64,000 nucleotides of DNA from a virus. The position numbers and the translations under genes are program-made. Under the pieces are notes generated by a model. The model worked only from the letters and a program-made list of their open reading frames with translations. It searched no databases and was not told where the DNA came from. The stretch lies in the IMG/VR virus record IMGVR_UViG_3300023202_000383, positions 1-64,000 of that record; one strand, given 5' to 3'. Below are positions 11,769 to 53,985 of this stretch, one piece after another. Each line of letters begins with the position of its first letter. Position 1 is the stretch's first letter.

Positions 11769-12404
11769 ATGGCACAATATTGTAATTCACAGAAATTAGA
11801 TACCATATGGGAATCGTGGCAGCTTTCTAGAGAGACCCCTGATTTAGAATTGGTCCGTGATTCTGGGTTGTTATGGACCAGAAGATGTGGCGACGATATG
11901 CTGCTACACTGCACGGCATCAGAGAATGATTTTTGGTTTGTGTCTATTAACGGTTCGATCCATTCATCTGATATTATTTTGGCTTTTAAATCCAGTACGT
12001 TTGAACCGGATTATGATTTGATTTCTGAGCTATCAGAATCTGAATTCATATATGAGCAAGACGAAATAGAAAGTTGGAACGAATTAGTGCACATGATAAT
12101 TCCGGTAGTGACTAATATATCTAAAAAATTCAATCCTAGGAATGAAGACGAAAAGTTTGAATTGATCCAAGAAGCCCTCTACGTGATATTAGACAAAATA
12201 AATAGAGGTATTCTTAAAATGAAGAAAGGCAAAGCCCCTTCATTTAATCTACTTACTACAGCAATAATAAATGCTATGCGGTCAATTAAAAATAAAGAGA
12301 ACCGCATCAAGACCAAGGATGCTAAGATATTTCAAGGGCTGATTAATTCAAAATGGCAAAATCGATCCTCGTACCAGTGTCAGCAATCTCTGGCAAACGA
12401 GTAG
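11769..12404 (+). CDS. Possible sigma-70 region 2-like transcription factor
   Basis: 211 aa. The C-terminal half reads like sigma region 2: an acidic helix (EDEKFELIQEALYVILDKI) followed by PSFNLLTTAIINAMRSIKNK, the pattern E-hh-Q-Eh...h in which a folded helix meets a basic DNA-contacting helix. The N-terminal half is unrelated to known families. A region 4 is not evident. It could work with the divergent zinc-ribbon protein at 10409. The next gene begins inside its last 52 bases. Confidence 0.4.
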   Translation: MAQYCNSQKLDTIWESWQLSRETPDLELVRDSGLLWTRRCGDDMLLHCTASENDFWFVSINGSIHSSDIILAFKSSTFEPDYDLISELSESEFIYEQDEIESWNELVHMIIPVVTNISKKFNPRNEDEKFELIQEALYVILDKINRGILKMKKGKAPSFNLLTTAIINAMRSIKNKENRIKTKDAKIFQGLINSKWQNRSSYQCQQSLANE

Positions 12405-13279
12405 CATATAAGAAGAAGCCCAGAGTAGGGGGAAAGACGGTTTCGATAAAGTCGAAAACCCCGATTGTCTCTCATAAAAGTATAAAGCCCAAGATAGGCA
12501 AAAGAACAAGGCAGATAGCTAGCACAAAGCAAAGGCTTAAAGCTAGCATAAATACTAAAAAGGGCGTCGTAAAAAACAGTCTCAACGGTGGGTCTGATCC
12601 GAGAATAAATGACTTAAGGAACAGTTGCGCCGGGAAACTACTTGTAATCATTGGGAATGGGCCGTCGCACAAAGAAGCACCACTATACAAGTTAAAAGAT
12701 TTAGATAATGTTGAGATGATGTGTGTAAACAGGCCCGACGAGAGAATATGGCCGCCGGACTACTGGACATTCTGCGACAACAGCCAGTATAAAAGACACC
12801 TGAATTTGTGGGAAAGGTTTGCCGGAACAATATTTAATACCAAATCTGTAAAAGCGGAAAAGACAAGTAGTATAAAACTGGTCACTAAAGCCGGTAGAGG
12901 GTTTAGTAACAATTTAAATAAAGGCGTCCATGTAGGAAGATCAACTGTATATACATCTATGCAGATTGCCACTTGGTTAGGGCATGATAAAGTGTACATA
13001 TTTGGATGCGATATGGCGGCAGTAAAAGGAAAGTTGTATCCATGGGGCTCTAACCCAGATGTTGATGATCAAACCAGAATAAATAGGTTCAAGAATGAAT
13101 CGGAATACTATTCCTGGGCCGCAGAAAACATGCCACAAAGGATTATAGATAAATTTGTATTTTGTAGTGCGTACAACACGTGGCCCTTTACAAAGAAATT
13201 CAAAACTATTGACCACATGCAGGCAGTAAAAAATATTATAAAGCTTTCCAAGGAGATGAGCAATGGCCAAGAAGAATGA
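12353..13279 (+). CDS. MptE/DUF115-like protein with basic N-terminal extension
   Basis: 308 aa. Residues 1-80 are a Lys/Arg/Ser-rich, probably disordered extension. The rest has the Rossmann-like pattern of the DUF115/6-hydroxymethylpterin pyrophosphokinase MptE-like family: LLVIIGNGPSHKEAP, then STVYTSMQIATWLGHDKVYIFGCDM. In bacteria such proteins often accompany flagellin or surface glycosylation genes. A second, shorter relative lies at 59009. Its start overlaps the preceding gene by 52 bases. Substrate unknown; a role in nucleotide-sugar chemistry together with the glycosyltransferases is inference. Confidence 0.6.
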   Translation: MAKSILVPVSAISGKRVAYKKKPRVGGKTVSIKSKTPIVSHKSIKPKIGKRTRQIASTKQRLKASINTKKGVVKNSLNGGSDPRINDLRNSCAGKLLVIIGNGPSHKEAPLYKLKDLDNVEMMCVNRPDERIWPPDYWTFCDNSQYKRHLNLWERFAGTIFNTKSVKAEKTSSIKLVTKAGRGFSNNLNKGVHVGRSTVYTSMQIATWLGHDKVYIFGCDMAAVKGKLYPWGSNPDVDDQTRINRFKNESEYYSWAAENMPQRIIDKFVFCSAYNTWPFTKKFKTIDHMQAVKNIIKLSKEMSNGQEE

Positions 13280-15858: not shown

Positions 15859-16494
15859 ATGGGAATACTGTCTCACTCCAAAGTATACTTGTGCGGCCAA
15901 GTAGAGAGCGATCTAGATAACGCTTATTCATGGCGTTCATCTATGGCCGATATATTAAAAAGTATAAATAAAGAGATAATAGTTTGGGACCCTCTTATAA
16001 CTCCGTCATGGGTCCCAGATTTCTGCCAAGATCCGAAAGCTTTCGACAAAAGTATACTACACCATAACTTGTTTAATATAGATCCTGATCACGAATCAAG
16101 AAAAAGAATAGTAAACACAAATCTGATCGTTCGAAAGGTATGCCATAAATTAGCGTCGACATGCGATTGGATGATAGCCAGGTTGAGCGACAAATTCACA
16201 TGGGGTAGTATACAGGAACTTGAAATAGCCATACAGAGAGGTATCCCGATATTTATAATATATGCCGATCGACCGCTTAGCGTATATGGATCAACTGGCA
16301 TTTTAGAAAACAGGGTAGGAGATCCAATTATAAGCCATTTAGACGACTACGTATTCAATGATGTTAATAAAATGTATGATATAATTAGGGAATTGGACTC
16401 TAAAGGACCAGCTTCCGATTTGATTAAGAATGACCCATTTAAATGGTCTTTCATAACATACACAGACGGAGAAGACTATGCTCCCATTGCATAA
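15859..16494 (+). CDS. Nucleoside 2-deoxyribosyltransferase-like protein
   Basis: 211 aa. KVYLCGQVES at the N-terminus, CDWMIARLSDKFTWGSIQELEIAIQ with a candidate catalytic Glu, and GIPIFIIYAD match the N-deoxyribosyltransferase fold (hYhAG ... D..ha.....GT..Eh..A...g.Ph). Such enzymes exchange or hydrolyse the base of deoxynucleosides or deoxynucleotides. It is followed by an aldolase-like gene with a 17-base overlap, which suggests a deoxyribose or nucleotide salvage pair. With the PurZ-like gene nearby, a role in shaping the dNTP pool is plausible inference. An insertion of about 60 aa around HHNLFNIDPDHES is unusual. Confidence 0.6.
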   Translation: MGILSHSKVYLCGQVESDLDNAYSWRSSMADILKSINKEIIVWDPLITPSWVPDFCQDPKAFDKSILHHNLFNIDPDHESRKRIVNTNLIVRKVCHKLASTCDWMIARLSDKFTWGSIQELEIAIQRGIPIFIIYADRPLSVYGSTGILENRVGDPIISHLDDYVFNDVNKMYDIIRELDSKGPASDLIKNDPFKWSFITYTDGEDYAPIA

Positions 16495-17164
16495 ATTAGA
16501 AATTGATGTAACTAATTCAAAGCAGATAAACGAAGCTGCACAAATAGCCACAGAGCATTTTTGCGCAGCAGTTGTTGTTACTCCAGAGTTAGTTCAAGAT
16601 ACATTAATAGCCAGAAACATGTATCGCGGAAAATGGAAAATAATATCTACAGTTGATACTCCAAAAGGTCTGCAATTTGCAGACAATAAATTTAGGGGTA
16701 TGCCTGTTCAGTCATTGTCAGCCGATGGATACGAGATACTCTTAACTTATGGCGAAAAGAACGACATTGCCAGAGAAATAAAATATCTAAATCAATTTTA
16801 CAAAGGTCATTTTAGTCCATTAACCGAATTTAGATATACATTGGATTTTGGCACTGACAAAAGAGACGAAAAGTTCGTTCAAAATGTGTGTGATATTATC
16901 ACCAAAATATCTATGCCATCATTTTTGAGAAACACACATTTATGCAAAGTATCAGCTACAGCTGGTAGTAAAAGTTCGCTAGAAAAACAAACTAAAATGA
17001 TATCTGACAAGTCTGTTGTGCCAGTAAAACTTAGCGGCAACATTGATGCAGACAATTATACTGATATAGTTGTCCCAAGATTTGGCGTGAACCTCAAGCA
17101 AGCTAGGTCTATTATCAGGAAGCTAAAAGAAGCCAACGAAAAATTAACAGCTAAAGGGCGGTAG
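16478..17164 (+). CDS. DeoC-like TIM-barrel protein (possible deoxyribose-phosphate aldolase)
   Basis: 228 aa. CAAVVVTPELVQ near the N-terminus, a central LCKVSATAG and a late VPVKLSGNID resemble the strand-end motifs of DeoC/aldolase barrels, where Lys residues sit on strands 6 and 7 (KhShGhG, KhsGGI). The Lys in VKLSGNID is in the expected Schiff-base position. It overlaps the deoxyribosyltransferase-like gene by 17 bases. The assignment is moderate to weak; it may be an inactive barrel. Confidence 0.4.
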   Translation: MLPLHKLEIDVTNSKQINEAAQIATEHFCAAVVVTPELVQDTLIARNMYRGKWKIISTVDTPKGLQFADNKFRGMPVQSLSADGYEILLTYGEKNDIAREIKYLNQFYKGHFSPLTEFRYTLDFGTDKRDEKFVQNVCDIITKISMPSFLRNTHLCKVSATAGSKSSLEKQTKMISDKSVVPVKLSGNIDADNYTDIVVPRFGVNLKQARSIIRKLKEANEKLTAKGR

Positions 17165-18376: not shown

Positions 18377-18951
18377 CAAGCTGGATATCCAAAGATCTCA
18401 AAATCCATGTCCAGTTTACTATAAGCCACTCGCTTTAAGTCGTCATCGTAATATTCGGACCAATGCTTGTGGTCTGTAGAATTGTGCTTATCTAATTTTA
18501 AATCAATCCCTATAGTCTTTACAATAGCGTTGAAATCCTCGTCTAGATTTTCGAATCGCCCAACAAAGTCAACGACTATTTTGCTTCTATCATCACATAT
18601 CCATCTTCTTTGTCTCCACCAATCTAGAGAATTATTTATTATAAAATCTTCGAATGTCTTGTACTTTTCCGTGAATTTAATGATATTTCTTTTATAATTG
18701 TATTCATAAGCAGACACTAAATGATCATACGGGTTCCTTACGAATGCGAATTTATAGTAATTTGCCCATTCCTCTGGAAATCTTCTCTTTATTTTCCGCC
18801 AAGTAACATGATGATAATCGTCGCTATCGATTTCGTCGTTTGGGACTATATCATTAGCTATATTGCCTTTTTTCATGGCAAATTTTATGCTAGTCCCAGC
18901 GGTCTTAGGGATATGGACAAATATGAACTTGTGTTTGTGCGAAATAATCAT
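18376..18951 (-). CDS. Sulfotransferase (PAPS-dependent, Sulfotransfer_2-like)
   Basis: 191 aa. FIFVHIPKTAGTSI is the 5'-phosphosulfate-binding loop and FAFVRNPYDHLVSAY the 3'-phosphate-binding motif of PAPS-dependent sulfotransferases. These move sulfate from PAPS to hydroxyl or amino groups, usually on carbohydrates in this subfamily. The gene overlaps PurZ by ATGA. A second, different sulfotransferase lies at 32885 next to a glycosyltransferase. Sulfation of a virion or host-surface glycan is inference. Confidence 0.85.
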   Translation of the reverse strand: MIISHKHKFIFVHIPKTAGTSIKFAMKKGNIANDIVPNDEIDSDDYHHVTWRKIKRRFPEEWANYYKFAFVRNPYDHLVSAYEYNYKRNIIKFTEKYKTFEDFIINNSLDWWRQRRWICDDRSKIVVDFVGRFENLDEDFNAIVKTIGIDLKLDKHNSTDHKHWSEYYDDDLKRVAYSKLDMDFEIFGYPA

Positions 18952-20156
18952 ACGTTTGCGAACACCACACTATCCGTACTTGGCCCGTGACTCCAGAATG
19001 ATGCCTCAACTCTATCTGGCAGGCAATCAAGATTATGATGTCTTATGAAATCTTTCATCTTTTCGTCGCCATATCTTTTAGACCCAACATAATTTAAAAA
19101 CGTGAACGCCAAGTATATCTTAAATGGGTTTGGGGGCATATTTTTTATTATAAAATCTTCTAATGCGAGTGTCGAAAATCTCATAATACGCCTAGGTAAC
19201 TTGGTAAGTGTAGTCATTTCAACAGGCACATCATAGCCAGCGATTCTCGACACCTCTTCCCAAGTCAATTCCTCACTGTCTTTAAATATATCGCCACTAT
19301 ATGAATCTACTTCTTCATATTCCTTGCCTTCCGATTCATATATCTGCACTTCATCCCAAGTTAAGAACTTTCTAGACTCTTTGTCAAGATATCTCTTGCT
19401 ATTTATTCTAATTGGCATAGTTCTATTTACTCCAATAATGTTGCCAATCAGATTCGGCGGCAGGTCCATGTCTGACATAAGCCCACCCACTGTGGTAGCT
19501 CTACTTGTGCAGTTAGGGTAGAAATTGGAATATAACGACAAGAAATGGCCTTGACTACCGTCCATAAGTGCGGTCGAGCTACTTAATTCAATTATCATAT
19601 CCAAAGGATCATATATCATATCCTTTAATTCATCATAGTCTTTAGCAACCTTCGTCTTTCTTAAGGACTTCTTGGCTCTACATGCGCCGCTTCCGGACCC
19701 AGTTGTGCCGTGCTTGCTTGTGCCCTTATATGGGTCAACTTCATTGTATGGGTCGCCCTCGAAGTTTTTTACTCCATTCTCAAAATCTATGTCATCCTGC
19801 GTGACTATCCCGGCATTGGGGTGTATATGTACGTGCGTTTTGGGGATATTTAGATCATGCATTTCTTTCAAAAGATCGTCTATGACAAACGCAGAACCGG
19901 GGCCAATAACCGCATGCGGCTCATATGGGATACCGTTTGCTAGATAACCATAATAAAACATACCAGATGGTAGTATTTTGAAGACATATTTTGTTCCGGA
20001 ATCTCTTACGGTATGGCTAGCGTTTCTGCTATTAGCAGTCAAAAGATAACGGGGGCAATTATTTTTAGCTAAATACGCTGATATTAGGCCTTTAGATTCA
20101 GATCCAAATTGTGCACCAAGACAAATATTTACTTTGCCGTTCTCGAAAAAACTCAT
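18948..20156 (-). CDS. purZ: PurZ-like adenylosuccinate synthetase homologue (2-aminoadenine pathway candidate)
   Basis: 402 aa. The PurA fold is clear: GAQFGSESKG (residues 14-23), NASHTV with His48, a LPSGMFYYG strand, GTTGSGSGACRAKK, and MDGSQGHFLSLY with TSRATT. In PurA the first motif is GxQWGDEGKG, and its Asp is the catalytic base that activates IMP. Here Ser19 replaces it. Asp-to-Ser at this position is the reported hallmark of PurZ enzymes, which condense aspartate with dGMP to give the precursor of 2-aminoadenine deoxynucleotide in Z-genome phages. The usual companions DatZ and MazZ are not seen in this window, so Z-DNA status is unproven. The gene is co-directional with the sulfotransferase and ends at the ATGA overlap. 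Confidence 0.8.
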   Translation of the reverse strand: MSFFENGKVNICLGAQFGSESKGLISAYLAKNNCPRYLLTANSRNASHTVRDSGTKYVFKILPSGMFYYGYLANGIPYEPHAVIGPGSAFVIDDLLKEMHDLNIPKTHVHIHPNAGIVTQDDIDFENGVKNFEGDPYNEVDPYKGTSKHGTTGSGSGACRAKKSLRKTKVAKDYDELKDMIYDPLDMIIELSSSTALMDGSQGHFLSLYSNFYPNCTSRATTVGGLMSDMDLPPNLIGNIIGVNRTMPIRINSKRYLDKESRKFLTWDEVQIYESEGKEYEEVDSYSGDIFKDSEELTWEEVSRIAGYDVPVEMTTLTKLPRRIMRFSTLALEDFIIKNMPPNPFKIYLAFTFLNYVGSKRYGDEKMKDFIRHHNLDCLPDRVEASFWSHGPSTDSVVFANV

Positions 20157-35327: not shown

Positions 35328-35385
35328 AATAAAATATCTTTGATTACAGATAGATCCTCTGCATTGCGTGTTGTATTTTATATAC

Positions 35386-36747
35386 ATGGTTGACATAATG
35401 AAATATAATGGTCCTACAGACTTTGCTCATCTTCATGTCCATACTTTATATAGTACGCTTGATGGGGTTCAATCTCCAGAAGAATTGTTTTCTACGTGCA
35501 AAGAAAGAGGATGGAGTGCGTTAGCCGTAACCGAGCATGGGACATTGGCATCAGTCCCAGACAATTATGCGGCTGCAAAAGAATACGGCGTAAAGTATAT
35601 AGTTGCTTGCGAAATTTATTACAATGATTATGAACCGACTAGGCAAGATCTTGTTAAAGAAGATGTTAAAATTCGCAAGCTAAAAGAAACCGACCCTAAT
35701 TTTTATTATAAAATGTCTAGAAATAGGCATTTAACAGTCCTTGCTAAAAACGATAAGGGTGTGGAGAACATAATAAAATTGACCACTCAAGCGTGGGAGA
35801 CTGGATTTTATTATAGGCCGAGGATATGGTTTGATAAATTAGATGAATATAGAGAGGGTTTATTGGTATTGAGTGGATGTTTAAATGGGCCTGTTTCTCA
35901 TGAGTTAAGACATGGGAATTTAAGGTCTGATGATATGAGAGGTGCATTAGACTATATACATAAATTCAAAGAAGTATTTGGCGATGATTATTTTGTAGAA
36001 TTGCAGATGCCTTGTCTTCCTGATTTTCCTGACCACAAAGTCTTCCGTGCATTAAATCATATAGCTAACAAGTACAATATACCGAAAGTTCTTACAAATG
36101 ACGCACATTATCTAAATCGTGAAGACTTTGAAATCCAGAAATTAATGATGGCTATATCCCAGGGTTTAACTGTTGATGATCCGAATCTGTTCCATGTAAA
36201 TAGTGATGAGCAATATCTTAAAACCAGAGCAGATCTATGGCACACATTTAAGACTGGGAAAGACGGCAAATATTGTGAATATGTGACTGATAGCGAATTT
36301 GAAGATATGTGCAACAACACATTGGTAGTTGCCGGTAAATGTGATAATTTCGAACCTGATTTGTCGTCGAAGGTTCCTACATTAGATAATGACGAGCAGA
36401 TCTTAAGAACCCTTGTGTACGATAGGCTTAAGCAAGAGGGATTCGATAAAGATGAAACTAAGTACAATATAGACAATAAAGAAGTTACTTATAGAGAACA
36501 AGCCGACATAGAATTGAATAGGTTTATTGAGAAGAATTTCGCCAGCTATTTCTTGATAACCAGAGATTTGGTGCAGTATAGTTTAGATAACGGTTGGCCT
36601 GTTGGACCGCGAGGTTCAGTTGGCGGCAGTCTAGTGTGTTATTTATTGGGCATAACCGAGTTGGATCCAATAAAATGGAATTTATCGTTTAACAGGTTTT
36701 TAAGCCCCTCGCGCGGAGGAAAGATGCTAAACATTAAGGCAGAATAG
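35386..36747 (+). CDS. dnaE: DNA polymerase III alpha, N-terminal piece (PHP domain plus start of palm)
   Basis: 453 aa. HLHVHTLYSTLDG, VTEHGT, VLSGCLNG and LTNDAHYL are intact PHP metal-binding motifs, suggesting proofreading-type or pyrophosphatase activity. The C-terminus reaches GPRGSVGGSLVCYLLG and SFNRFLSPSRGGKM, where normal DnaE continues directly into the catalytic PDxDxD. Here it reads LNIKAE and stops. An ATG at 35398 is an alternative start. The catalytic Asp pair lies in a separate gene at 39423, so polymerase activity needs assembly of the pieces. Confidence 0.88.
   Translation: MVDIMKYNGPTDFAHLHVHTLYSTLDGVQSPEELFSTCKERGWSALAVTEHGTLASVPDNYAAAKEYGVKYIVACEIYYNDYEPTRQDLVKEDVKIRKLKETDPNFYYKMSRNRHLTVLAKNDKGVENIIKLTTQAWETGFYYRPRIWFDKLDEYREGLLVLSGCLNGPVSHELRHGNLRSDDMRGALDYIHKFKEVFGDDYFVELQMPCLPDFPDHKVFRALNHIANKYNIPKVLTNDAHYLNREDFEIQKLMMAISQGLTVDDPNLFHVNSDEQYLKTRADLWHTFKTGKDGKYCEYVTDSEFEDMCNNTLVVAGKCDNFEPDLSSKVPTLDNDEQILRTLVYDRLKQEGFDKDETKYNIDNKEVTYREQADIELNRFIEKNFASYFLITRDLVQYSLDNGWPVGPRGSVGGSLVCYLLGITELDPIKWNLSFNRFLSPSRGGKMLNIKAE
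36733..36746. repeat. 14-bp direct repeat flanking the homing endonuclease, copy 1 (copy 2 at 38615-38628)
   Basis: ATTAAGGCAGAATA occurs at the end of the polymerase N-terminal gene and again just before the gene at 38629. An extended TAAACATTAAG segment is shared too (36728-36738 and 38604-38614). Removing the interval would place the ATG at 38629 immediately after the polymerase stop, as expected if the endonuclease gene is an insertion. Confidence 0.8.
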
Positions 36748-36777: not shown

Positions 36778-38613
36778 ATGATAAATGTACAACGAAGCAA
36801 AGAAGTGTTTGGATTAAAAAGCATCAATAGGATTCCTAAAAAACAGAAAGTTATATGTAATTGTGATGTTTGTGGGGTTGAATCACGTATTACTAAGCAG
36901 CACCATTATATATGCAGCAAACGTGCTGGTTTATATAGATGTAAAGATTGTGGTAGAAAAGCCATGGCATCTAAAGTATCAAAAGCCATGATATCAAAAT
37001 GGCAAAACGACAAATACAAATCCAAGCAGATTGGCAGGACTCATAGCGATGAATTAAAGGAATATGCTAGGCAGAGAGCTATCAAATTGTGGAAAGATAA
37101 AGAATATGTGGCAAAGTATAATGCTGGGTTTGACCCGGCCAAGGCTAGAAAGAATCTAAAGGCCACCAGATCGGTTGCCAATAAAGCTGCATCGCTTGCT
37201 ATGGCTGATAAATGGCAGGAAAAAGAATATCGCAGTAAAATGTCAGATCAATCAGCTAAGCTATGGAGTAACGATTGTTATAGAAACAAAGTAATAAGTA
37301 GCCTCAAAAAACATTATTCGTCATTAGAAGTTTTAGATAGATGTTCAAATAGAGCGAAAAAATTGTGGAAGAATAATGATTATAGGGATAGGTGGTTCAA
37401 ATCATTTATGCAATCATTTGGCAATGAAAGGTTACACGAAATTTCATTACAAAGTGCCAAGAATTGGGGAGACCGAGAATATAGAGATAAAATAGAATCA
37501 CAATGGGACGATCAAAAACGTGCAGAAATGTCCGAAATATGTAAAGAATGGTGGACTGATGATAGGAGAGCTGAAGTTTCTGAGATTATGATAAGTAGGT
37601 GGTCGGACCCTAATTTTAGAAAGAAAACAATAAAAGCATTTATTGATTCATGGACTGAAGAACGCAGGCAGGCTGCTAAAGATTCATGGACTGAAGAACG
37701 CAGGCAGGCTGCGTCTGATAGATCCAGGAATTTGTGGAAAGATCCGAAATATGTTAGCAAGATGGTTGATATGATCGGGAGGCCGTCGTCTTTAGAAATT
37801 CAATTCGCCAGCTTATTGGATGATTATGGCATCGAGTACACGCAACAGTTCCATTTAGGGCCATATTTATTTGATTTTAAGGTCAACGATGTCTTAATAG
37901 AAATTAATGGCGATTATTGGCATAGATTGCCGAAGACAATATCAAAAGACAAGGCTAAAGCTACTTATGTTGAAAAACATTATCAGCAATATCAGCTTAA
38001 GTATTTATGGGAGCATGAATTTTATCAATTAGAAAAGATTAATAAATTTATTGAATTCAGTTTTGTTGGTTCTGACGTAGAAGAGGTTGATTTTTCAGAA
38101 TTAAAATTTGTTACTGATATAGATTATGATTCAATAAAATCGTTAATTGAGAAATATCATTATAAAGGAAGTATTGGTCGGGGTGGGGTGTATTATGGTG
38201 TTATATATCGTGGTAATTTGATCGCTGGGTCTGTTGTTGGGTCACCAACTAGGAATGTTGTTGGTGGCGAGTTGTTACGATTTGTTATACACCCACAGTA
38301 TCAGGTCAAGAATCTTGCATCGTGGTTTTTGAGTAGAATCTCAAAGCATGCTTTGAGAGATTATGATTTATTGTTTACATTTGCTGATCCGAATTTTAAC
38401 AATTACGGCACAATATATGAGGCTAGCGGCTGGGAATTTGCTGGCGAAACAAAATCAGATTATTGGTATGTTAGCGAAGACGGTTGGGTTATGCATAAAA
38501 AGACTTTATGGAATAGAGCAAAGAATTTATGTATGTCAGAAAGGTATTTTGCTGAGGTTTTTGGATATAATCGGGTATATGGGTTGCCAAAGAGAAAGTA
38601 TATTAAACATTAA
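36778..38613 (+). CDS. Free-standing EDxHD/Vsr-like homing endonuclease inserted in the fractured polymerase
   Basis: 611 aa. An N-terminal Cys/His zinc finger (CNCDVCG ... YRCKDCG) is followed by seven or more NUMOD-like repeats (KLWKDKEYV, KLWSNDCYR, NLWKDPKYV). The nuclease core LEIQFASLLDD ... LFDFKVNDVLIEINGDYWH is the EDxHD/Vsr-like family described for fractured phage genes. A C-terminal acyltransferase-like domain follows. It lies between the first and second polymerase pieces and is flanked by 14-bp direct repeats. It contains an internal 30-bp tandem duplication (DSWTEERRQAA twice). Confidence 0.85.
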   Translation: MINVQRSKEVFGLKSINRIPKKQKVICNCDVCGVESRITKQHHYICSKRAGLYRCKDCGRKAMASKVSKAMISKWQNDKYKSKQIGRTHSDELKEYARQRAIKLWKDKEYVAKYNAGFDPAKARKNLKATRSVANKAASLAMADKWQEKEYRSKMSDQSAKLWSNDCYRNKVISSLKKHYSSLEVLDRCSNRAKKLWKNNDYRDRWFKSFMQSFGNERLHEISLQSAKNWGDREYRDKIESQWDDQKRAEMSEICKEWWTDDRRAEVSEIMISRWSDPNFRKKTIKAFIDSWTEERRQAAKDSWTEERRQAASDRSRNLWKDPKYVSKMVDMIGRPSSLEIQFASLLDDYGIEYTQQFHLGPYLFDFKVNDVLIEINGDYWHRLPKTISKDKAKATYVEKHYQQYQLKYLWEHEFYQLEKINKFIEFSFVGSDVEEVDFSELKFVTDIDYDSIKSLIEKYHYKGSIGRGGVYYGVIYRGNLIAGSVVGSPTRNVVGGELLRFVIHPQYQVKNLASWFLSRISKHALRDYDLLFTFADPNFNNYGTIYEASGWEFAGETKSDYWYVSEDGWVMHKKTLWNRAKNLCMSERYFAEVFGYNRVYGLPKRKYIKH

Positions 38614-39015: not shown

Positions 39016-39496
39016 TAAAATAGACATATATTGCTTTGCTAGAGGCAAGGATAGTCCATACGCATATGGCATCCTTGTGGTCGCACATTATGGCGAAGAG
39101 TGTAAAGAGCACGAGAAATTTGGTTTCGTAGATGCGAAAACGCCTACTGAGGCCAATATCAAGATAATATTGATGGCGTTGAAGTCCGTTAAAGATGACT
39201 TTAAGGACCTCGATATCACTCTTCATGTAAGAAAATCTGCATTTTATTGTGTTGATAGAACATCTTGGGGAACCTATAGAACAAAGCCAACCAGACATCA
39301 TAAACTGATAGGTGCGGTGAGAAGTTTGTTTGACGAGCTTCCTAATGCAAGATCAAAGATGATATTCTCCAAATACCAAAAGTATGCTAAAAGATGTATA
39401 AAAAAGTCTAGGAGCATGTTTCATGCGAAACGACGCGAGTTGGGACGATATAAAGGTGATAGCGGTCAAGGAGCTCGTCCAGAAAAAGCTACCTAA
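39005..39496 (+). CDS. Possible RNase H-fold protein, 163 aa (TTG start)
   Basis: A TTG start overlaps the preceding gene. IDIYCFARGKDSPYAYGILVVAHYG ... DAKTPTEANIKIILMALKSV ... ITLHVRKSAF follows the strand-strand-helix-strand order of RNase HI, but the usual Asp and Glu catalytic residues are not in place (first Asp replaced in CFARGKD). It is probably an inactive or divergent RNase H-like fold, perhaps a polymerase partner. It overlaps the polymerase catalytic piece by 74 bases. Weak assignment. Confidence 0.4.
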   Translation: MAPDKIDIYCFARGKDSPYAYGILVVAHYGEECKEHEKFGFVDAKTPTEANIKIILMALKSVKDDFKDLDITLHVRKSAFYCVDRTSWGTYRTKPTRHHKLIGAVRSLFDELPNARSKMIFSKYQKYAKRCIKKSRSMFHAKRRELGRYKGDSGQGARPEKAT

Positions 39497-41192
39497 CGAG
39501 TATAAGTCTAGATTTAAGACAGAAATAAAAGAGATCGAAAAGCAAGGTGCCAATGCCTATTGGCAGCAGCTATATAACGAAGATCACAAATACGACACGA
39601 ATAACAATGGTTTGGTCTTGCCCTGGATATTAGGCATGACCGATGTTGATCCTTTAAAATCAGACCATCAATATACAAGGTCGACGGACTGGCCTGACAT
39701 AGATGTTGACTGCTTACCGACAGCCAGAGATAGGATCAAAGAATATGCTGCAGAGAAATATGGCAAAGACAAAGTCTGTAGCGTAGGGTTGTGGCAGACA
39801 TATAAATTTAGGTCAGCATTACAAGACTCTGTTAGAGGTGTTGGTGGTAATGTCAAAGAAATCATGGACATCACTAAGCAGTTGCCGGATGATGTTGACG
39901 ATCTGAAAGATGGTGGTTTTGCAAAGTGCACTGAATGTAAAACGAAGCATAATGAGCATAAATGCCCAGAATGTGGATCAACAGAAATAGATGGGATCAC
40001 ATTTGGGAAGGTGATAGAAGATCATGAAGAATTAAAGAAATATTATGGAGAGCATCCTAAAGAAGTCAATCTAGCCGTTAGAATGATAGGAAAAATAAAA
40101 GCGCTGGGTAAACACGCTGGCGGCCTTATTATATCTGATAGAGTGCTATTCGGAAATGTCCCTATGGGCGTTTCAAATGGCCATTGGACAAGTTTGTGGA
40201 CTGAAGGCAGGAGTACTCAATTATCTAAATTCGGGTATATTAAGTGGGATATGCTTGGCCTTAAAACTTTGCAGTATATTCATGAGTGCTGCAAATTAAT
40301 CAATAAAACCAGAAATTACAAGTTTAATGTTATTCCATGGAAAGGAATGGACCCATGGGAAAACTGTCTTGGATACTATTGGGATAATAATGGCGTAAAA
40401 CACAAAGTGAGGATGGATGACGAAAAAACCTTTGAGATGATGAACGCCATAAGGACCGATACAGTATTCCAATTCGACACGGCACTGCAGAAGAAGATTT
40501 TAGAAAATGGCGTAAACAGCTTTTATGATTTACAGATATTTAATGCAATGGGCCACCCAGGTCCGTTGCCAATGATCGATGAGTATGTAGCTCGACGTGA
40601 CAATGAGGACTACGATTGGAAGAGCGAGGAGCATCCTGATGTTGCATCGTTGCTTAAAGACACAAAGGGTATCATAGTATATCAGGAGCAATTGCAGAAG
40701 ATCTGGCAACATTTGGCTAAATTCACGGCTCCCGAAGCTGAATCTGCGAGGAAGGCTGTTGCTAAGAAATGGACGGAAAAACTAAAGCCTGTTGAGGAGA
40801 AGTGGGTAAGGGGCGCATCTAAGATAATGGGCGAGCGGCGGGCTAAAGATTACTGGGGGAAGATGAAAACTTTCGGTAGGTATGCCTTCAATAAATGCCT
40901 GGACAAAGATACTATATTAGAAGATCCTACAAATGGCAATACTATAACTGTTGAAGAGCTTTTTGAATCTAAATCGAGCTTTAAATTAGAATCTTATTGT
41001 GATGATGGATTTGTGGTCGATGACGTTGATGAGATAATCGAATGCGGTGAACAAGATATTTATGAAATAGAATTAGATAATGGGGCGATTCAGAAAGTCA
41101 CTTTGAATCATAAGTTTAGGTGCGATGATGGAAAATACTGGACAGTCAAAGAAATCATCGAAGGCAATTATTCCATCGTGGTTCGACCATAA
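39423..41192 (+). CDS. dnaE: DNA polymerase III alpha, catalytic piece fused to split-intein N-fragment
   Basis: 589 aa. Residues 91-96 are PDIDVD, the catalytic Asp pair of C-family polymerases, and KWDMLGL near residue 274 supplies the third Asp. A four-Cys zinc ribbon (CTECKTKHNEHKCPECG), unusual for DnaE, lies near residue 165. The N-terminal 80 residues (ILGMTDVDPL) repeat in degenerate form a region already encoded at the end of the first piece. The extein ends at FGRYAFNK. From Cys at 40896 the sequence is an intein N-fragment. A stop at 41190 ends the protein, so trans-splicing with the piece at 41923 is needed. Confidence 0.85.
   Translation: MRNDASWDDIKVIAVKELVQKKLPNEYKSRFKTEIKEIEKQGANAYWQQLYNEDHKYDTNNNGLVLPWILGMTDVDPLKSDHQYTRSTDWPDIDVDCLPTARDRIKEYAAEKYGKDKVCSVGLWQTYKFRSALQDSVRGVGGNVKEIMDITKQLPDDVDDLKDGGFAKCTECKTKHNEHKCPECGSTEIDGITFGKVIEDHEELKKYYGEHPKEVNLAVRMIGKIKALGKHAGGLIISDRVLFGNVPMGVSNGHWTSLWTEGRSTQLSKFGYIKWDMLGLKTLQYIHECCKLINKTRNYKFNVIPWKGMDPWENCLGYYWDNNGVKHKVRMDDEKTFEMMNAIRTDTVFQFDTALQKKILENGVNSFYDLQIFNAMGHPGPLPMIDEYVARRDNEDYDWKSEEHPDVASLLKDTKGIIVYQEQLQKIWQHLAKFTAPEAESARKAVAKKWTEKLKPVEEKWVRGASKIMGERRAKDYWGKMKTFGRYAFNKCLDKDTILEDPTNGNTITVEELFESKSSFKLESYCDDGFVVDDVDEIIECGEQDIYEIELDNGAIQKVTLNHKFRCDDGKYWTVKEIIEGNYSIVVRP
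40896..41189 (+). other. Split-intein N-fragment in DnaE (site FNK|S)
   Basis: 98 codons beginning with Cys1 (CLDKDTILED), with block B-like IYEIELDNG and VTLNHKFRCDDGKYW (TxxH form) and ending ..GNYSIVVRP before a stop. Size and ending match natural split inteins such as the gp41/NrdJ type. Its C-partner lies at 41923-42054, 730 bases downstream. Confidence 0.75.
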
Positions 41193-41942
41193 AATTATAA
41201 GCTACAATGATAATATAAAAAGTAATGATACAATAAAATCAATATGTTCAATATGCGGCGATAAAACAAGTAGAAAATTTATCGAACATAAAAGGCTGTG
41301 CAATAGGCAATCAAGATATGTTAGCTCATATCGGTGCCGGTCTTGCCTGACAAAGTCAGATGATTACAAAATCAAAATAAAAAAAGCTGAATTCGACACA
41401 GATGCTATGAGTAAGAGGTCAAAAAAGCATTGGGCTAATTTATCAAAGCACGATCGTAAGGCATTAACTAGCAAGATAACAGCCAAATTAAGAACTGATG
41501 CTGTAAGAGAAAAAATTAGCAAGTCTATAAAAGAAAAATTTGACGATCCAGATTATATTCGTAAAGTTTCGGAGGCGAGAAAGAAATATTGGGAAAATTA
41601 TGAATATAGGAAAAATAGGACGTTATCGATAGATGAATTTATAGAGAGATCTAAGTCAGTTCATGGCGATAAGTATGATTATTCGAAAGTTCAATTCGAT
41701 TCTGCCAGGAATTCTAAAGTTGATATTATATGTCCAGATCATGGTGTCTTCCGACAAAGACCGTTATGGCATTATTTGTATGGTAATGGGTGCCCAGATT
41801 GTTAGACAAGAATTCCAAAAGCACAAACTTAGCGGTAAATTAGACAATTTTGATAGTAATTTGACTGAACTACAGAATATGTTCAATAATGGATATAGGG
41901 TGGGATGCTGGACACAATAAATATGAATGGAAACGTAGCTAA
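41125..41942 (+). pseudogene. Decayed homing endonuclease between split-intein halves
   Basis: The frame 41125-41805 keeps an N-terminal zinc finger (CSICGDKT ... YRCRSC), a NUMOD-like helix array and one DUF723 unit (VHGDKYDYSK ... CPDHGVF ... GNGCPDC). It then stops. A different frame resumes with QEFQKHKLSGKLDNFDSNL, and a third with GWDAGHNKYEW, which are the C-terminal tail of the endonucleases at 33699 and 63349. The nuclease and acyltransferase domains are deleted, so this is a remnant that marks a former homing insertion in the intein. Confidence 0.7.
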
Positions 41943-42054
41943 AATAAAGTCTATAAAATATGTCGGTAAAAGAAGATCATACAACATATGTATGGAATCT
42001 AGCCAACATAATTATTTAATAAAACCATCTAGCGGGCAACCTATTCATAAAAAT
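41923..42054 (+). other. Split-intein C-fragment in DnaE
   Basis: 44 codons ending in ..PIHKN before Ser. Block F is HNYLI. Together with the N-fragment at 40896 it would total about 142 residues, a mini-intein size. The combined interval is not a multiple of three, which excludes a single contiguous intein gene. Confidence 0.72.
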
Positions 42055-43071
42055 TCCCATAGCATAGGCTATATAACGGAGGCATATTGGTGTGCATGGT
42101 TAAAGGCTCACTTTCCGCCAGAATGGTGGGCGTCTGTTATGAGTTATTGCCACCATGTGAGACTCAAGAGATACATGAATGTGGCAAGGTCTGAGGGCGT
42201 TAAATTTGGTCCTATAAATATAGAGGACCTGTCACCATATTATTCAGTCGACCCAGAGACGCATAAAGTCACTCCTGGTCTTATAAGCATAAAGGGGATC
42301 GGCCAGAAAGCTGCAGACAAACTGTCTGGTAAAGGAAAGTATGATAATATAGATGATTTCGTGGATAAATTTGGAAAAGACAAAAGGGTGATGGAAAGAT
42401 TGATACTTCTTGGTGCTTTTCAGAAATACCACCCAAATATAAAAGCCACTTGGATTTGGTACCAATATAAATATTGTAGTGGCGCTGCCTCTAGAGAAAT
42501 CAAGAAGCACATTAAGTCTGAACTGCTGGCTGACTGGACCGATGAGAGAATTGAACAAGAACGCAAAAGACAGGCGGATGAATATTTTAAATTGTATCCA
42601 AATAGGCGTAAGCTTCCGAATAAGATAGCCAACTGGAATCCTAAGCCTGATGATACAAGAGAAAATGTTATGGCATTGATAGAAGACGATTATGCTAATG
42701 CCGAAAAATTCAATTTTGAAAAGGAATATCTAGGGTACTATTGGAGGAATCCAATAGAATATTTTAAGACTGATTCAGATAATACAATTATAAATGCCAA
42801 GAAGAATGGTGGGGGGTTCATAGATGTAGTGATAGAGTCTTTCGAAATAGCGGAGACTCGCAAAGGAGGATTATTCGGCAGGTTGGCAGTAATGGATGGC
42901 AGCACAGCCTGTAACGTATACATGTGGGAAGGCGAGCTCGATGCCTCTGAGAGCTTCATCGATGACGGGATAGGTATTAGACTAAATGTTGATTATAACG
43001 ACGGAAGAAGGACATTCTCAGTCAAGAGAGGATCAGTTCCTGTGATACTTGAGATGTCTGAGGACCAGTAG
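41923..43071 (+). CDS. dnaE: DNA polymerase III alpha, C-terminal piece with split-intein C-fragment
   Basis: 382 aa from ATG 41923 (ATG 41905 also possible). Residues 1-44 are an intein C-fragment: KIKSIKYVGKRRSYNICMES, the block F QHNYLI and a terminal PIHKN, then extein Ser42055. The extein SHSIGYITEAYW ... WLKAHFPPEWWASVM matches DnaE after the canonical FNK|SH site. A helix-hairpin-helix (ISIKGIGQKAADKL) and an OB-type region (FGRLAVMDGSTACNVYMWEG) follow. The DnaE is short and lacks a tau-binding tail. Penultimate Lys in HKN instead of the usual HN is unusual. Confidence 0.85.
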   Translation: MNGNVAKIKSIKYVGKRRSYNICMESSQHNYLIKPSSGQPIHKNSHSIGYITEAYWCAWLKAHFPPEWWASVMSYCHHVRLKRYMNVARSEGVKFGPINIEDLSPYYSVDPETHKVTPGLISIKGIGQKAADKLSGKGKYDNIDDFVDKFGKDKRVMERLILLGAFQKYHPNIKATWIWYQYKYCSGAASREIKKHIKSELLADWTDERIEQERKRQADEYFKLYPNRRKLPNKIANWNPKPDDTRENVMALIEDDYANAEKFNFEKEYLGYYWRNPIEYFKTDSDNTIINAKKNGGGFIDVVIESFEIAETRKGGLFGRLAVMDGSTACNVYMWEGELDASESFIDDGIGIRLNVDYNDGRRTFSVKRGSVPVILEMSEDQ

Positions 43072-47487: not shown

Positions 47488-47590
47488 TAGACTCCCTCAT
47501 ATGGAAATTTCTAAAATTATTTTTGATAACGGTCTAAAAATATTTACTCACAATGTGCTATTTAAGCAGTATTAGATGTCAGGAGGCAAC

Positions 47591-49741
47591 ATGGCTAAAG
47601 GCAAAAAAGAAAGCAAGACAGACTATTCGAACATGGACATAGACAGTCTGATGAGTAGTCTTAACAAGAAATATGGTGAGGGGTCTGTGCAGAAGTATGA
47701 TAGGGCCGCAATAGTGTCGTGCGATACTATAAGCACTGGCGTGGCCACTTTAGATGATGCTTTGCATATTGGCGGAGTACCTAAAGGGCGGGTAATAGAA
47801 ATCTATGGCCCCGAATCTGGCGGCAAGACTACTCTATCTCTGTCTATCGTAGCCGAATGCCAGGCTGCCGGTGGGACAGCGGCATTTATTGATGCTGAGC
47901 ACGCGTTGGATGTTCAGTGGGCGCACGACATTGGTGTTGATGTAGAATCATTGCTGATAAGCCAGCCGGATTCTGGCGAGCAGGCGTTGGAAATCTGCGA
48001 AGCTATGGTTAGATCGAACAAGTTTGGTATTATAGTGGTTGATTCGGTTGCAGCCCTTGTTCCTAAAGCCGAAATTGATGGTGAAATGGGCGATGCCCAT
48101 GTTGGTCTGCAGGCCAGGATGATTAGTCAGGGTATGAGAAAGCTATCTGGTGCAGTTAAGACCAGCAATACATGCTTGGTATTTATTAATCAGCTTCGCG
48201 AGAAGATCGGCGTGATGTTTGGGTGTTTACATGCTGACAATCTTATAAATTTTTCGGATGGCAAGTCGGCCACAATAAAAGACGTTGTTGATAATAAAAT
48301 CAAAGGATCAGTATGGTCTTATGATGAGGAATTAGACGAATTTTGTGAATGCCAGATTACTGATTGGCATTTCAATGGTGAAGTCAGTAATCCAGAGGAT
48401 TATTTATCTATTTCAATAAAAGGATCTGGTAATAAAAATGGGCGAATGAATATAATTGTGACGCCCGACCACGATGTGCTTACTGATTATGGCTGGGTTC
48501 GGGCAACCGATCTGGATATCGGAGACAAATTAATAACCAAGCAGCAAGATGTTATGTGTGGTGATTTAGGAAATTTTCTTAGAGGGACATTGTCTGGCGA
48601 TTCGCATATATCTCAAGCGGATGGGCACCTGTGTGCAAGTTTGAAAATCAGGGATAATATTGATATTAATTATGCAAAATGGAAGGCAAATAAGTTGTCT
48701 GCAATCAGTATGACCAAAAAGACTTATGGTAAATATGATATATATACTTCTGGGCAATTTTCTCAATTTGTTGACATAAAAGAAGATTTCCCAAACAGGG
48801 ACCCTATGCTTTTGTTGAGTAGTTTTAGTTGGCTTGGTTTTGCTATATGGATAATGGATGATGCTTGTTATAATAGAAGTAGATATGTTTTGTCTATTAA
48901 AAGGCTAAAAGGCGACCATAAAAAGATCGATGAAATTAGTAAGACACTAGACGACCTAGGCTTATATCATCATTCTAGTTATGGCGGGAAAATCACGTTC
49001 GACAAAGACATATCTGATATGATTGCCCATAAGATAGCCAAATATGTTCCTATATGTATGCGTCATAAATTACCAAATGACGTTGAATTAGATAATTATT
49101 GCGAATTTGAATTGAAGAATTCAACGAAGCAGTGCAAGACTTATGCAGAGGTTGTTGATATACGTACCGCAAGCAATAGACAAATGAAAAATGTCGGAAA
49201 ATATGATATTTCAGTGGACAGATGCCACAATTATTCCGTTGGTGGGAGACATAATGGCGTTATTGTGCACAATTCGCCCGAAACAACGCCTGGCGGTAGG
49301 GCACTGAAATTCTATGCATCAGTTAGGCTAGATGTTAGACGTACTGGAATAGAAAAAGACGGCGATACGCCGATTGGAAGTAAGGTTAGGGTAAAAGTTG
49401 TTAAGAACAAAGTGGCTCCGCCATTCTCGCAGGCTGAATTTGTTATATACTATGGCAAAGACGAGATGCCAGTATATGGTCCTGATAAGTTCGGATCCAT
49501 CTTAGATATGGCGGTAGATAAGGATATTGTTGGTAAAAGCGGGTCGTGGTATGAGTATAATGGCGATAAAATAGGGAATGGTAGGACTAACGCTGTAAGA
49601 TTCTTACAGGATTCTGATTCAGTGTCTGAGGAAATCAAAGCTAAATTGGCCGATCTTAGGAAAGCGCGTGTTGCTGAGGTCAATGAGGCCGATGAAGTTG
49701 ATGAAATCAAAGACGAAGACACAGAATCGGAAGGTGATTGA
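47591..49741 (+). CDS. recA: RecA recombinase interrupted by an intein
   Basis: 716 aa precursor from ATG 47591, preceded by [23 protein letters not shown] (Walker A), a DSVAALVPK strand and [14 protein letters not shown] are RecA core motifs. The protein continues after the intein with [20 protein letters not shown]. The extein is about 366 aa, ending in an acidic tail, close to bacterial RecA length. T4-like phages usually use UvsX; a bacterial-type RecA here is notable. The intein is in frame, so cis-splicing should restore the enzyme. Confidence 0.92.
48224..49273 (+). other. RecA intein with LAGLIDADG endonuclease domain
   Basis: 350 codons. Begins with Cys1 ([13 protein letters not shown]) after ..GVMFG, has [13 protein letters not shown] (TxxH block B), [12 protein letters not shown] and [12 protein letters not shown] as the two LAGLIDADG-like helices, [15 protein letters not shown] (block F) and ends GVIVHN before Ser. 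All canonical splicing residues (Cys1, His, terminal HN, Ser+1) are present, so it looks active. Confidence 0.9.
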
Positions 49742-52433: not shown

Positions 52434-52813
52434 TATACGAATACACATGTATAGATTGCGTAGAGAGGGCTGCTGGGAAGAAAGTATCTGAGTTGTCTGT
52501 TGCTGACCATAATATATTGTCTAATCGATATAAGATATTGGTCAAGCATAGGCTTTCTGAATCTCCAACAGTTGTGTGCCCTATTTGTGATGGCAATAAC
52601 ACTTGCAAGTTGTTGCAGATGGAGACTTCATATGTTAGAGGGTATGGGTATCTCGACAAAAAAGGTGTATATAACGATATGGACTTACACAAGATGGCTT
52701 CGGGGAATGACCCATATGCCGGGTCTAGAGCTGAGGGCGAAGCCAAAGATGTGATTGATAAATTAAGAAAGAATAAGAAACGAAATGTACGATCTAAGAA
52801 TGTATATATGTAA
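52430..52813 (+). CDS. Zinc-ribbon protein, 127 aa
   Basis: MIYEYTCIDC at the start and CPICDGNNTC in the middle suggest a FmdB-like zinc ribbon; the C-terminus is very basic (RKNKKRNVRSK). Coupled by ATGA to the GroES-like gene and by a one-base overlap to the polymerase gene. Probably nucleic-acid-binding. Confidence 0.55.
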   Translation: MIYEYTCIDCVERAAGKKVSELSVADHNILSNRYKILVKHRLSESPTVVCPICDGNNTCKLLQMETSYVRGYGYLDKKGVYNDMDLHKMASGNDPYAGSRAEGEAKDVIDKLRKNKKRNVRSKNVYM

Positions 52814-53985
52814 TGCTTGGTGTTTATACAGTATTTAGTGAAAAAGACAGGTCCAAGCCGTTAGCAACCGCTATTTCTAACGGCTTGGAAACCAGAGTAG
52901 TAAGCCTATTCGGATCAAAATCCGGCAAAACCATATATGACATAAACCAAGATGTTTGTAAGATAAAGAGTGTACTTACGTCTGGTAAAGAGATCTTAAT
53001 CAATAATCTTAAAGATCATATTATAGGGTTCGGTGTCGACAATAGTATATCTGATTCCATTAATGCCTATGAGATTCTAGAAGTAGATGGTCAACGCGAT
53101 CATAATATAGATTCCGCTAGAGCGAAAGCCAAAAAGCGGTGTCAGATGATGGTAAGTGCTAAAAAGATGGATTGGCATAAGGTAAAAGCCGGTGCGTCTA
53201 AGGTATACGCTCATTTAGAAAAGAAGGGAATCCTGTACAACTATAGTCCAACGTATCCGGCGTGGGACACCAAATTGTTCTCTGGCAGATCTAGAACCAG
53301 TGGATTTAGTATACATGGTGCTAGTAAAGATGATATGATTGCCAATATAAATGGCGACGATTTATATATAAACTTCGACTGGGTTGCAGCAGATATTAGG
53401 ATAGTGTCATACTTGAGCAAGGACAAAGTATTGTTAGAATCATTTGAAGATGGAGACCCATATAGTTATATAGCAAAAATGCTGAATGCGGATTCTGATT
53501 CTGACGAAATATCTAGAGATGAGAGCAAACGAGCATTGTTGGCCACTATCTATTCTATGGACATAGACAATCCGCTTTTAAATCTCTTCGAAAGTTTAAG
53601 GCCCTGGATGGTTGAATCATTGAAGAGATTTGACAAGGATGGATATTTGTCTAGTGTACTGGGTCGTAGATTTAGAATATCTAAAGATAGGACAAAAAAG
53701 TCAGTATTTAATGCGGTCATCCAAGGGTCTGTTGCGCACGCCATGCAGAATGTTATGTACAAAGCGTGGTTAAAATATCCAAACAAGATATTGACCGAAA
53801 ATCACGATTCGTTAGTTGTAACATGTAAAGAAAACAATAGCCAGATGCGTAAGATAATAGAGTATGTGAGTGCAATAATGTTAAGGCCATTTGATGGTAT
53901 TTTAGAAGATGAGATGATATTCCCAGTTAGTATAAGTATTGGTAAAAAATATAAGAGATGGAAATTTTATAAGAGATTGCAATGA
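52813..53985 (+). CDS. Compact family A DNA polymerase-like protein
   Basis: 390 aa. NFDWVAADIRIVSYLS is a divergent motif A (usual DYSxIELR), SRDESKRALLATIYSMD is the fingers motif B with R...K...Y, and ILTENHDSLVV is motif C with HDS for HDE. There is no 3'-5' exonuclease domain, and the N-terminal 130 residues are unlike Pol I. Together with the fractured DnaE this phage has two polymerases. Family A polymerases (DpoZ) accompany PurZ in Z-genome phages, so it is the best local candidate to use a modified dNTP, but no sequence marker of DpoZ is demonstrated here. Confidence 0.7.
   Translation: MLGVYTVFSEKDRSKPLATAISNGLETRVVSLFGSKSGKTIYDINQDVCKIKSVLTSGKEILINNLKDHIIGFGVDNSISDSINAYEILEVDGQRDHNIDSARAKAKKRCQMMVSAKKMDWHKVKAGASKVYAHLEKKGILYNYSPTYPAWDTKLFSGRSRTSGFSIHGASKDDMIANINGDDLYINFDWVAADIRIVSYLSKDKVLLESFEDGDPYSYIAKMLNADSDSDEISRDESKRALLATIYSMDIDNPLLNLFESLRPWMVESLKRFDKDGYLSSVLGRRFRISKDRTKKSVFNAVIQGSVAHAMQNVMYKAWLKYPNKILTENHDSLVVTCKENNSQMRKIIEYVSAIMLRPFDGILEDEMIFPVSISIGKKYKRWKFYKRLQ

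Follow-up and report, generated by a model that had tools for sequence, protein, structure and literature searches.

The window analysed here covers the opening 64 kb of an IMG/VR record of 256,507 bases, the sequence of a 257-kb phage. The following features are referred to below.

12353-13279, plus strand: MptE-like neighbour, a landmark that related phages also keep upstream of their NDT/DERA-fold pair, for which no pathway role is claimed
15859-16494, plus strand: P0004, assigned to the NDT superfamily (nucleoside deoxyribosyltransferase / dNMP N-glycosidase fold), long type
16478-17164, plus strand: P0005, protein with a predicted DERA fold, whose frame overlaps that of P0004 by 17 bases, so that the pair spans 15859-17164
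18948-20156, minus strand: P0001, PurZ-type adenylosuccinate synthetase of 402 aa with the Asp-to-Ser change at the catalytic position (Ser19), from database matches, tree and residue map
35368-36747, plus strand: DnaE part 1 of a split gene, with PHP and the beginning of the polymerase domain
39423-41192, plus strand: DnaE part 2, polymerase and finger domains, with a C-terminal end that by eye resembles an intein start
41905-43071, plus strand: DnaE part 3, helix-hairpin-helix part
52813-53985, plus strand: mini-PolA, a 390-aa family-A DNA polymerase (PF00476, E = 1e-12), lineage marker and candidate Z polymerase

The initial annotation had reported a PurA homologue with an Asp-to-Ser change at 18948-20156, and this was borne out on the minus strand (20156-18948, 402 codons), the plus strand of the same coordinates being full of stops. 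The four motifs named there (GAQFGSESKG, NASHTV, GTTGSGSGA and MDGSQG) were all found in the translation of P0001. The protein matched Pfam PF00709 (E = 4e-20) and PHROG 1211, '2-aminooxy adenylosuccinate synthetase' (E = 4.5e-36), and its best PDB match was the phiVC8 PurZ 6fko (E = 4e-28), from which it is clear that the frame is real and no chance ORF. The NCBIfam PurZ model NF038379 was the top model of its library at 147.6 bits; since the curated cut-off of 300 was not reached, P0001 is regarded as a divergent member of PurZ. A sulfotransferase-like gene passing Pfam PF03567 (18376-18951, minus strand) shares 4 bases with the end of purZ. Sulfotransferase-like genes were also present at positions 120180, 139415 and 150698 of the record, with BLAST likeness to a phage sulfotransferase homologue.

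A phylogenetic tree of 63 rows was generated from phage PurZ, PurZ0, Ser-type bacterial and archaeal paralogs, and Asp-type PurA including that of E. coli. All the Ser-forms formed a single group (100/99). The comparison with PurA and PurZ0 suggested in the initial annotation placed P0001 outside the cellular PurA clades and within the phage PurZ superclade, a PurZ-side group of 43 rows (100/99) with PurZ0 and Asp-type PurA outside; an earlier tree agreed. The clade of P0001 was shared with the PurZ of Flavobacterium phage MaF61, L025 and L261 (100/99). This placement, like the make-up of the catalytic site, was observed directly.

The residue map showed that Ser19, Asn45, His48, Arg250 and the TT-T loop of P0001 agree with PurZ. 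In S-2L PurZ numbering, the residues kept were S23 (= Ser19), N49, A50, H52, T132, R146, Q190, C204, T205, R240, the TT-T loop and R280. The donor pocket was of the adenine type (Phe and Asn/Gln in place of the Lys and Asp of PurA), with Phe353/Asn355 corresponding to F295/N297 of phiVC8, whereas both PurA and PurZ0 have an Asp at the second site; the roles of residues in the PurZ active site and donor pocket have been described (PMC8342488). Departures from S-2L were found at Ser21 (G25), Ser47 (G51), Ile251 (V241) and Thr352 (N305), and a Gly replaces the Asp upstream of QFGS. The P-loop residue equivalent to Gly15 of PurA was also altered, giving GSE-S-KG in P0001 as compared to GSE-A-KG in PurZ0 and GST-G-KG in classical PurZ. 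Tree, motifs and pocket residues together back the PurZ identity, and the reading of P0001 as a divergent PurZ and no cellular PurA is well supported by its sequence. As a PurZ, P0001 would convert dGMP, Asp and (d)ATP to dSMP.

The step from the Asp-to-Ser change to a Z (2-aminoadenine) pathway, also proposed initially, held in part: the PurZ assignment is backed, but the substitution alone is no proof of a Z genome, because bacterial chromosomes and an archaeal MAG also carry Ser-type paralogs. Two such PurA/PurZ paralogs with the motif GQAGSCGKG were found in Clostridia MAGs (L108:6001-7098 and L122:5533-7065) and appear to be chromosomal, near recA or gapA/pgk. A NUDIX gene adjoins the paralog in L108, and a NUDIX domain is fused to it in L122.

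DatZ and MazZ had been noted as missing from the window, and this was found to extend over all 256,507 bases of the record. Neither DatZ nor MazZ/DUF550, PurB, a full-length or classical DpoZ, nor a family-B polymerase was found in the whole record, results that are provisional because the record may be incomplete, its ends included. The combination of DatZ with MazZ or DUF550 in one genome, which marks the classical Z-cluster, was accordingly not detected in this record. A DutZ-like signature was sought in the dUTPase of the record, in which the hairpin looks ordinary, this feature not being diagnostic.

Compared with the purZ-mazZ-datZ cluster of S-2L, phiVC8 and SH-Ab 15497, P0001 shares the PurZ fold, the Ser at the Asp13 position, the ATP-type donor pocket and the PurZ-side clade, but at an identity of about 26-30%. 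Their genomes are 39-46 kb with PolA/DpoZ or PrimPol, whereas the phage studied here is a 257-kb DnaE phage in which no DatZ/MazZ was found. With the PurZ0 system of Arthrobacter and Gordonia phages (PurZ0, DutZ and DmtZ) it has in common a putative NDT-superfamily enzyme and the P-loop form GSE-[A/S]-KG. It differs in that P0001 lies outside the PurZ0 clade and lacks the PurZ0 donor-pocket Asp, that the dUTPase gene is 150 kb away, and that a partner with a predicted DERA fold is present. The nearest annotated PurZ is that of MaF61 (35.8% identity, same clade), but MaF61 is a T4-like phage with a family-B polymerase, its own PurB and no P0005. The PurB-like lyase of MaF61 (L003:26673-28028) lies 10 kb from purZ; as in Gordonia phage Frizzle, the second pathway step is phage-borne.

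No match to PF05014 was found in the whole record, and P0004 itself stayed below the Pfam cut-offs and was not matched by a short-NDT profile. A long-type relative of P0004 passes both Pfam NDT cut-offs, and the NDT membership of P0004 was assigned solely via the long-type relatives in records G029, G037, G043 and G046. Tyr10 and Glu120, the catalytic Tyr and Glu of the NDT signature, were invariant in the family alignment (A7), and the predicted model of P0004 matched NDT and DNPH1 structures. Family alignment and model thus both indicate an NDT-superfamily protein. By analogy with DmtZ, P0004 might hydrolyse dAMP and transfer its dR5P to the Z base.

DERA structures topped the match list of the predicted P0005 model (pLDDT 68); the models of the pair were built on 3 and 5 sequences, with pLDDT of 68 and 60. 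Lys184 of P0005 is placed as Lys201 of DeoC, but the position of the Schiff-base Lys of DERA (strand 6) carries an invariant Arg151 and no conserved Lys, an equivalence taken from a weak sequence alignment. At the sequence level, hhalign of the P0005 family against E. coli DeoC was not significant, and hmmsearch against the PDB found nothing. The possibility that P0005 is an active DERA aldolase was dropped on account of this Arg, and P0005 is treated as a protein with a predicted DERA-type TIM-barrel fold and not filed as an aldolase. The pair adjoins dCTP-deaminase/dUTPase-like genes in G037 and G043, which fits a role of the pair in the nucleotide pool.

Scans of IMG/VR with P0001, MaF61 PurZ or P0004 as single proteins found no relatives, so alignment queries were needed, and tblastn of P0004, P0005 and mini-PolA against the phage collection gave no match. 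The alignment-based search of IMG/VR revealed PurZ in several large records. Two of these (356 kb and 275 kb) also have a split DnaE and a mini-PolA and share the gene order of the window, with an NDT-type gene and a P0005 homologue followed by purZ. A scan with the P0005 family gave 10 loci, with PurZ within the fetched flank in 9 and at the end of the contig in the tenth; the mini-PolA scan gave 55 loci. PurZ was present in 17 of the 23 large mini-PolA records and P0005 in exactly the same 17, and no record had one without the other. As some of the 23 had originally been met via PurZ or P0005, the 16 met first via mini-PolA were counted separately: 10 had both PurZ and P0005 and 6 had neither (chance about 1 in 8,000, with records treated as independent). 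The 6 records without PurZ and P0005 were also without the MptE-like neighbour, one weak match excepted, and are for this reason probably fragments and little informative, true absence being unsampled. All 10 records of at least 157 kb had both genes.

An NDT-type gene lies immediately 5′ of P0005 in 17 of 17 records, 12 of the short type and 5 of the long type including P0004. Both PurZ and the pair were still present where the distance between them was about 174 kb (G037) or about 25 kb (G043). PurZ with the NDT/DERA-fold pair is thus a lineage-wide set of large phages and no one-off. Neither PurZ with this gene pair nor PurZ in a giant DnaE phage was found described in the open-access literature searched, of which the coverage is incomplete. 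In 11 of the 17 records, purZ is followed by a gene for a TIM-barrel protein with a weak AP_endonuc_2 match (for example L251:821-1495, L253:713-1498 and L264:2268-3065), which is missing in this record. In one mini-PolA phage of 137 kb, the PurZ frame is 1212 aa long (L187:11714-15352) and apparently interrupted by an intein.

The PurZ proteins of this phage and of G043 group with MaF61 and L025, apart from the main mini-PolA PurZ clade. Forcing the two into that clade alone was rejected by the AU test (p = 2e-4), whereas a larger clade also taking in MaF61 and L025 was not rejected (p = 0.33); both tests take in g_L105, itself a nested member of the clade. The PurZ copy of G044 grouped elsewhere in the 63-row tree. 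By these placements purZ has been exchanged between lineages yet retained, and its replacement by distant homologues suggests that PurZ activity is needed by these phages.

The reading that we prefer, and to which we give about an even chance, is a variant of the Z pathway in which PurZ acts with the NDT/DERA-fold pair, the pair replacing DatZ/MazZ in the handling of dAMP and deoxyribose phosphate. In favour of this reading, PurZ and the pair are co-present even when far apart. Using ATP or dATP as the phosphate donor, P0001 would couple dGMP with aspartate to give dSMP, which host PurB and kinases would bring to dZTP. In PurZ0 phages, DutZ and DmtZ act as helpers, and DmtZ, an NDT enzyme, hydrolyses dAMP and can move its deoxyribose phosphate to the Z base (PMC12884076). 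Like DmtZ, the NDT protein (P0004 or its shorter counterparts) may split dAMP or exchange its base; splitting would drain dA from the pool and free deoxyribose 5-phosphate, and alternatively the protein may load the Z base. P0005 may bind or process the released sugar phosphate, and DnaE and/or mini-PolA would build DNA with A wholly or partly replaced by Z. All the reactions proposed for this lineage are inferred, as are the direction in which the sugar phosphate is handled and the presence of Z in the DNA. Counting against the preferred reading are the dATP/dGTP hydrolases of the reference Z-clusters, which were not found here, the lack of P0005 in MaF61 and L025, the nearest phages by PurZ, the unusual P-loop changes Ser21 and Ser47 together with the Gly upstream of QFGS, the occurrence of Ser-type paralogs in bacterial chromosomes, and the Arg at the Schiff-base site of P0005.

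That P0001 is a PurA which raises AMP synthesis during infection is highly improbable: the likeness to PurA is at the level of the family, P0001 falls outside PurA with strong support, the catalytic Asp of PurA is missing and the donor pocket is without PurA's Asp. As a replacement of host AMP synthesis by PurA, it was rejected on the tree and residues. More weight, though still small, is given to P0001 and the pair making another modified purine nucleotide than 2-aminoadenine, through an acceptor other than dGMP or a base-exchange product. NDT enzymes do exchange bases, Ser-type paralogs without an assigned function occur in bacteria, and P0001 carries Ser21, Ser47, a Gly for Asp, and Ile251 in place of the ribose-selecting valine, but the rest of the dGMP pocket is retained and the tree puts P0001 among phage PurZ.

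It is rather unlikely, but less so, that P0001 is a working PurZ with Z merely partial or at trace level and the pair a general nucleotide-scavenging module conserved in the same region. Neither DatZ nor a classical DpoZ was found, and if dATP is not removed, a polymerase that does not discriminate would yield mixed DNA; the dCTP-deaminase/dUTPase-like neighbours of the pair in G037 and G043 would also fit. Against scavenging stands the co-presence of PurZ and the pair at a distance. The preferred variant of the Z pathway may be taken further: the uncultured, widespread giant-phage lineage with DnaE and a minimal family-A polymerase might make Z genomes by a third accessory route, in which PurZ acts with a coupled pair, an NDT-type dNMP glycosidase/transferase with its DERA-fold partner, and deoxyribose 5-phosphate is moved or destroyed so as to exclude dA or load the Z base. 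This extended form is put forward as a tentative possibility that we hold somewhat doubtful.

The large mini-PolA phages with PurZ and the pair are a previously undescribed lineage, and their gene content points to a different route to full or partial Z DNA. The Z-DNA phages compared are about 38-55 kb, with DatZ/MazZ or DutZ/DmtZ helpers and a PolA- or PrimPol-type polymerase. If the giant phages carry Z, the modification extends to large DnaE phages, a further set of pool-controlling proteins exists, and the minimal PolA is a candidate Z polymerase. With MaF61, an isolate is available within the PurZ clade of P0001, and part of the question is directly testable.

The DnaE-type replisome that had been noted at the outset was confirmed, with DnaE split in three parts. 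The other replication genes of the window are RecA, DnaB and a gp32-like SSB, and RNR, ThyA, DHFR and dUTPase are found elsewhere in the record. Intein domains are present in RecA (window 47576-49741) and in RNR (record 158340-161150), while the frame of the dUTPase continues into a LAGLIDADG endonuclease (record 169824-171014). Between the DnaE halves lies a protein of 611 aa (window 36778-38613) in which a Mom-family domain (PF25680) was matched; by eye it resembles an insertion of the homing-endonuclease type, one end of which is a Mom-like acetyltransferase.
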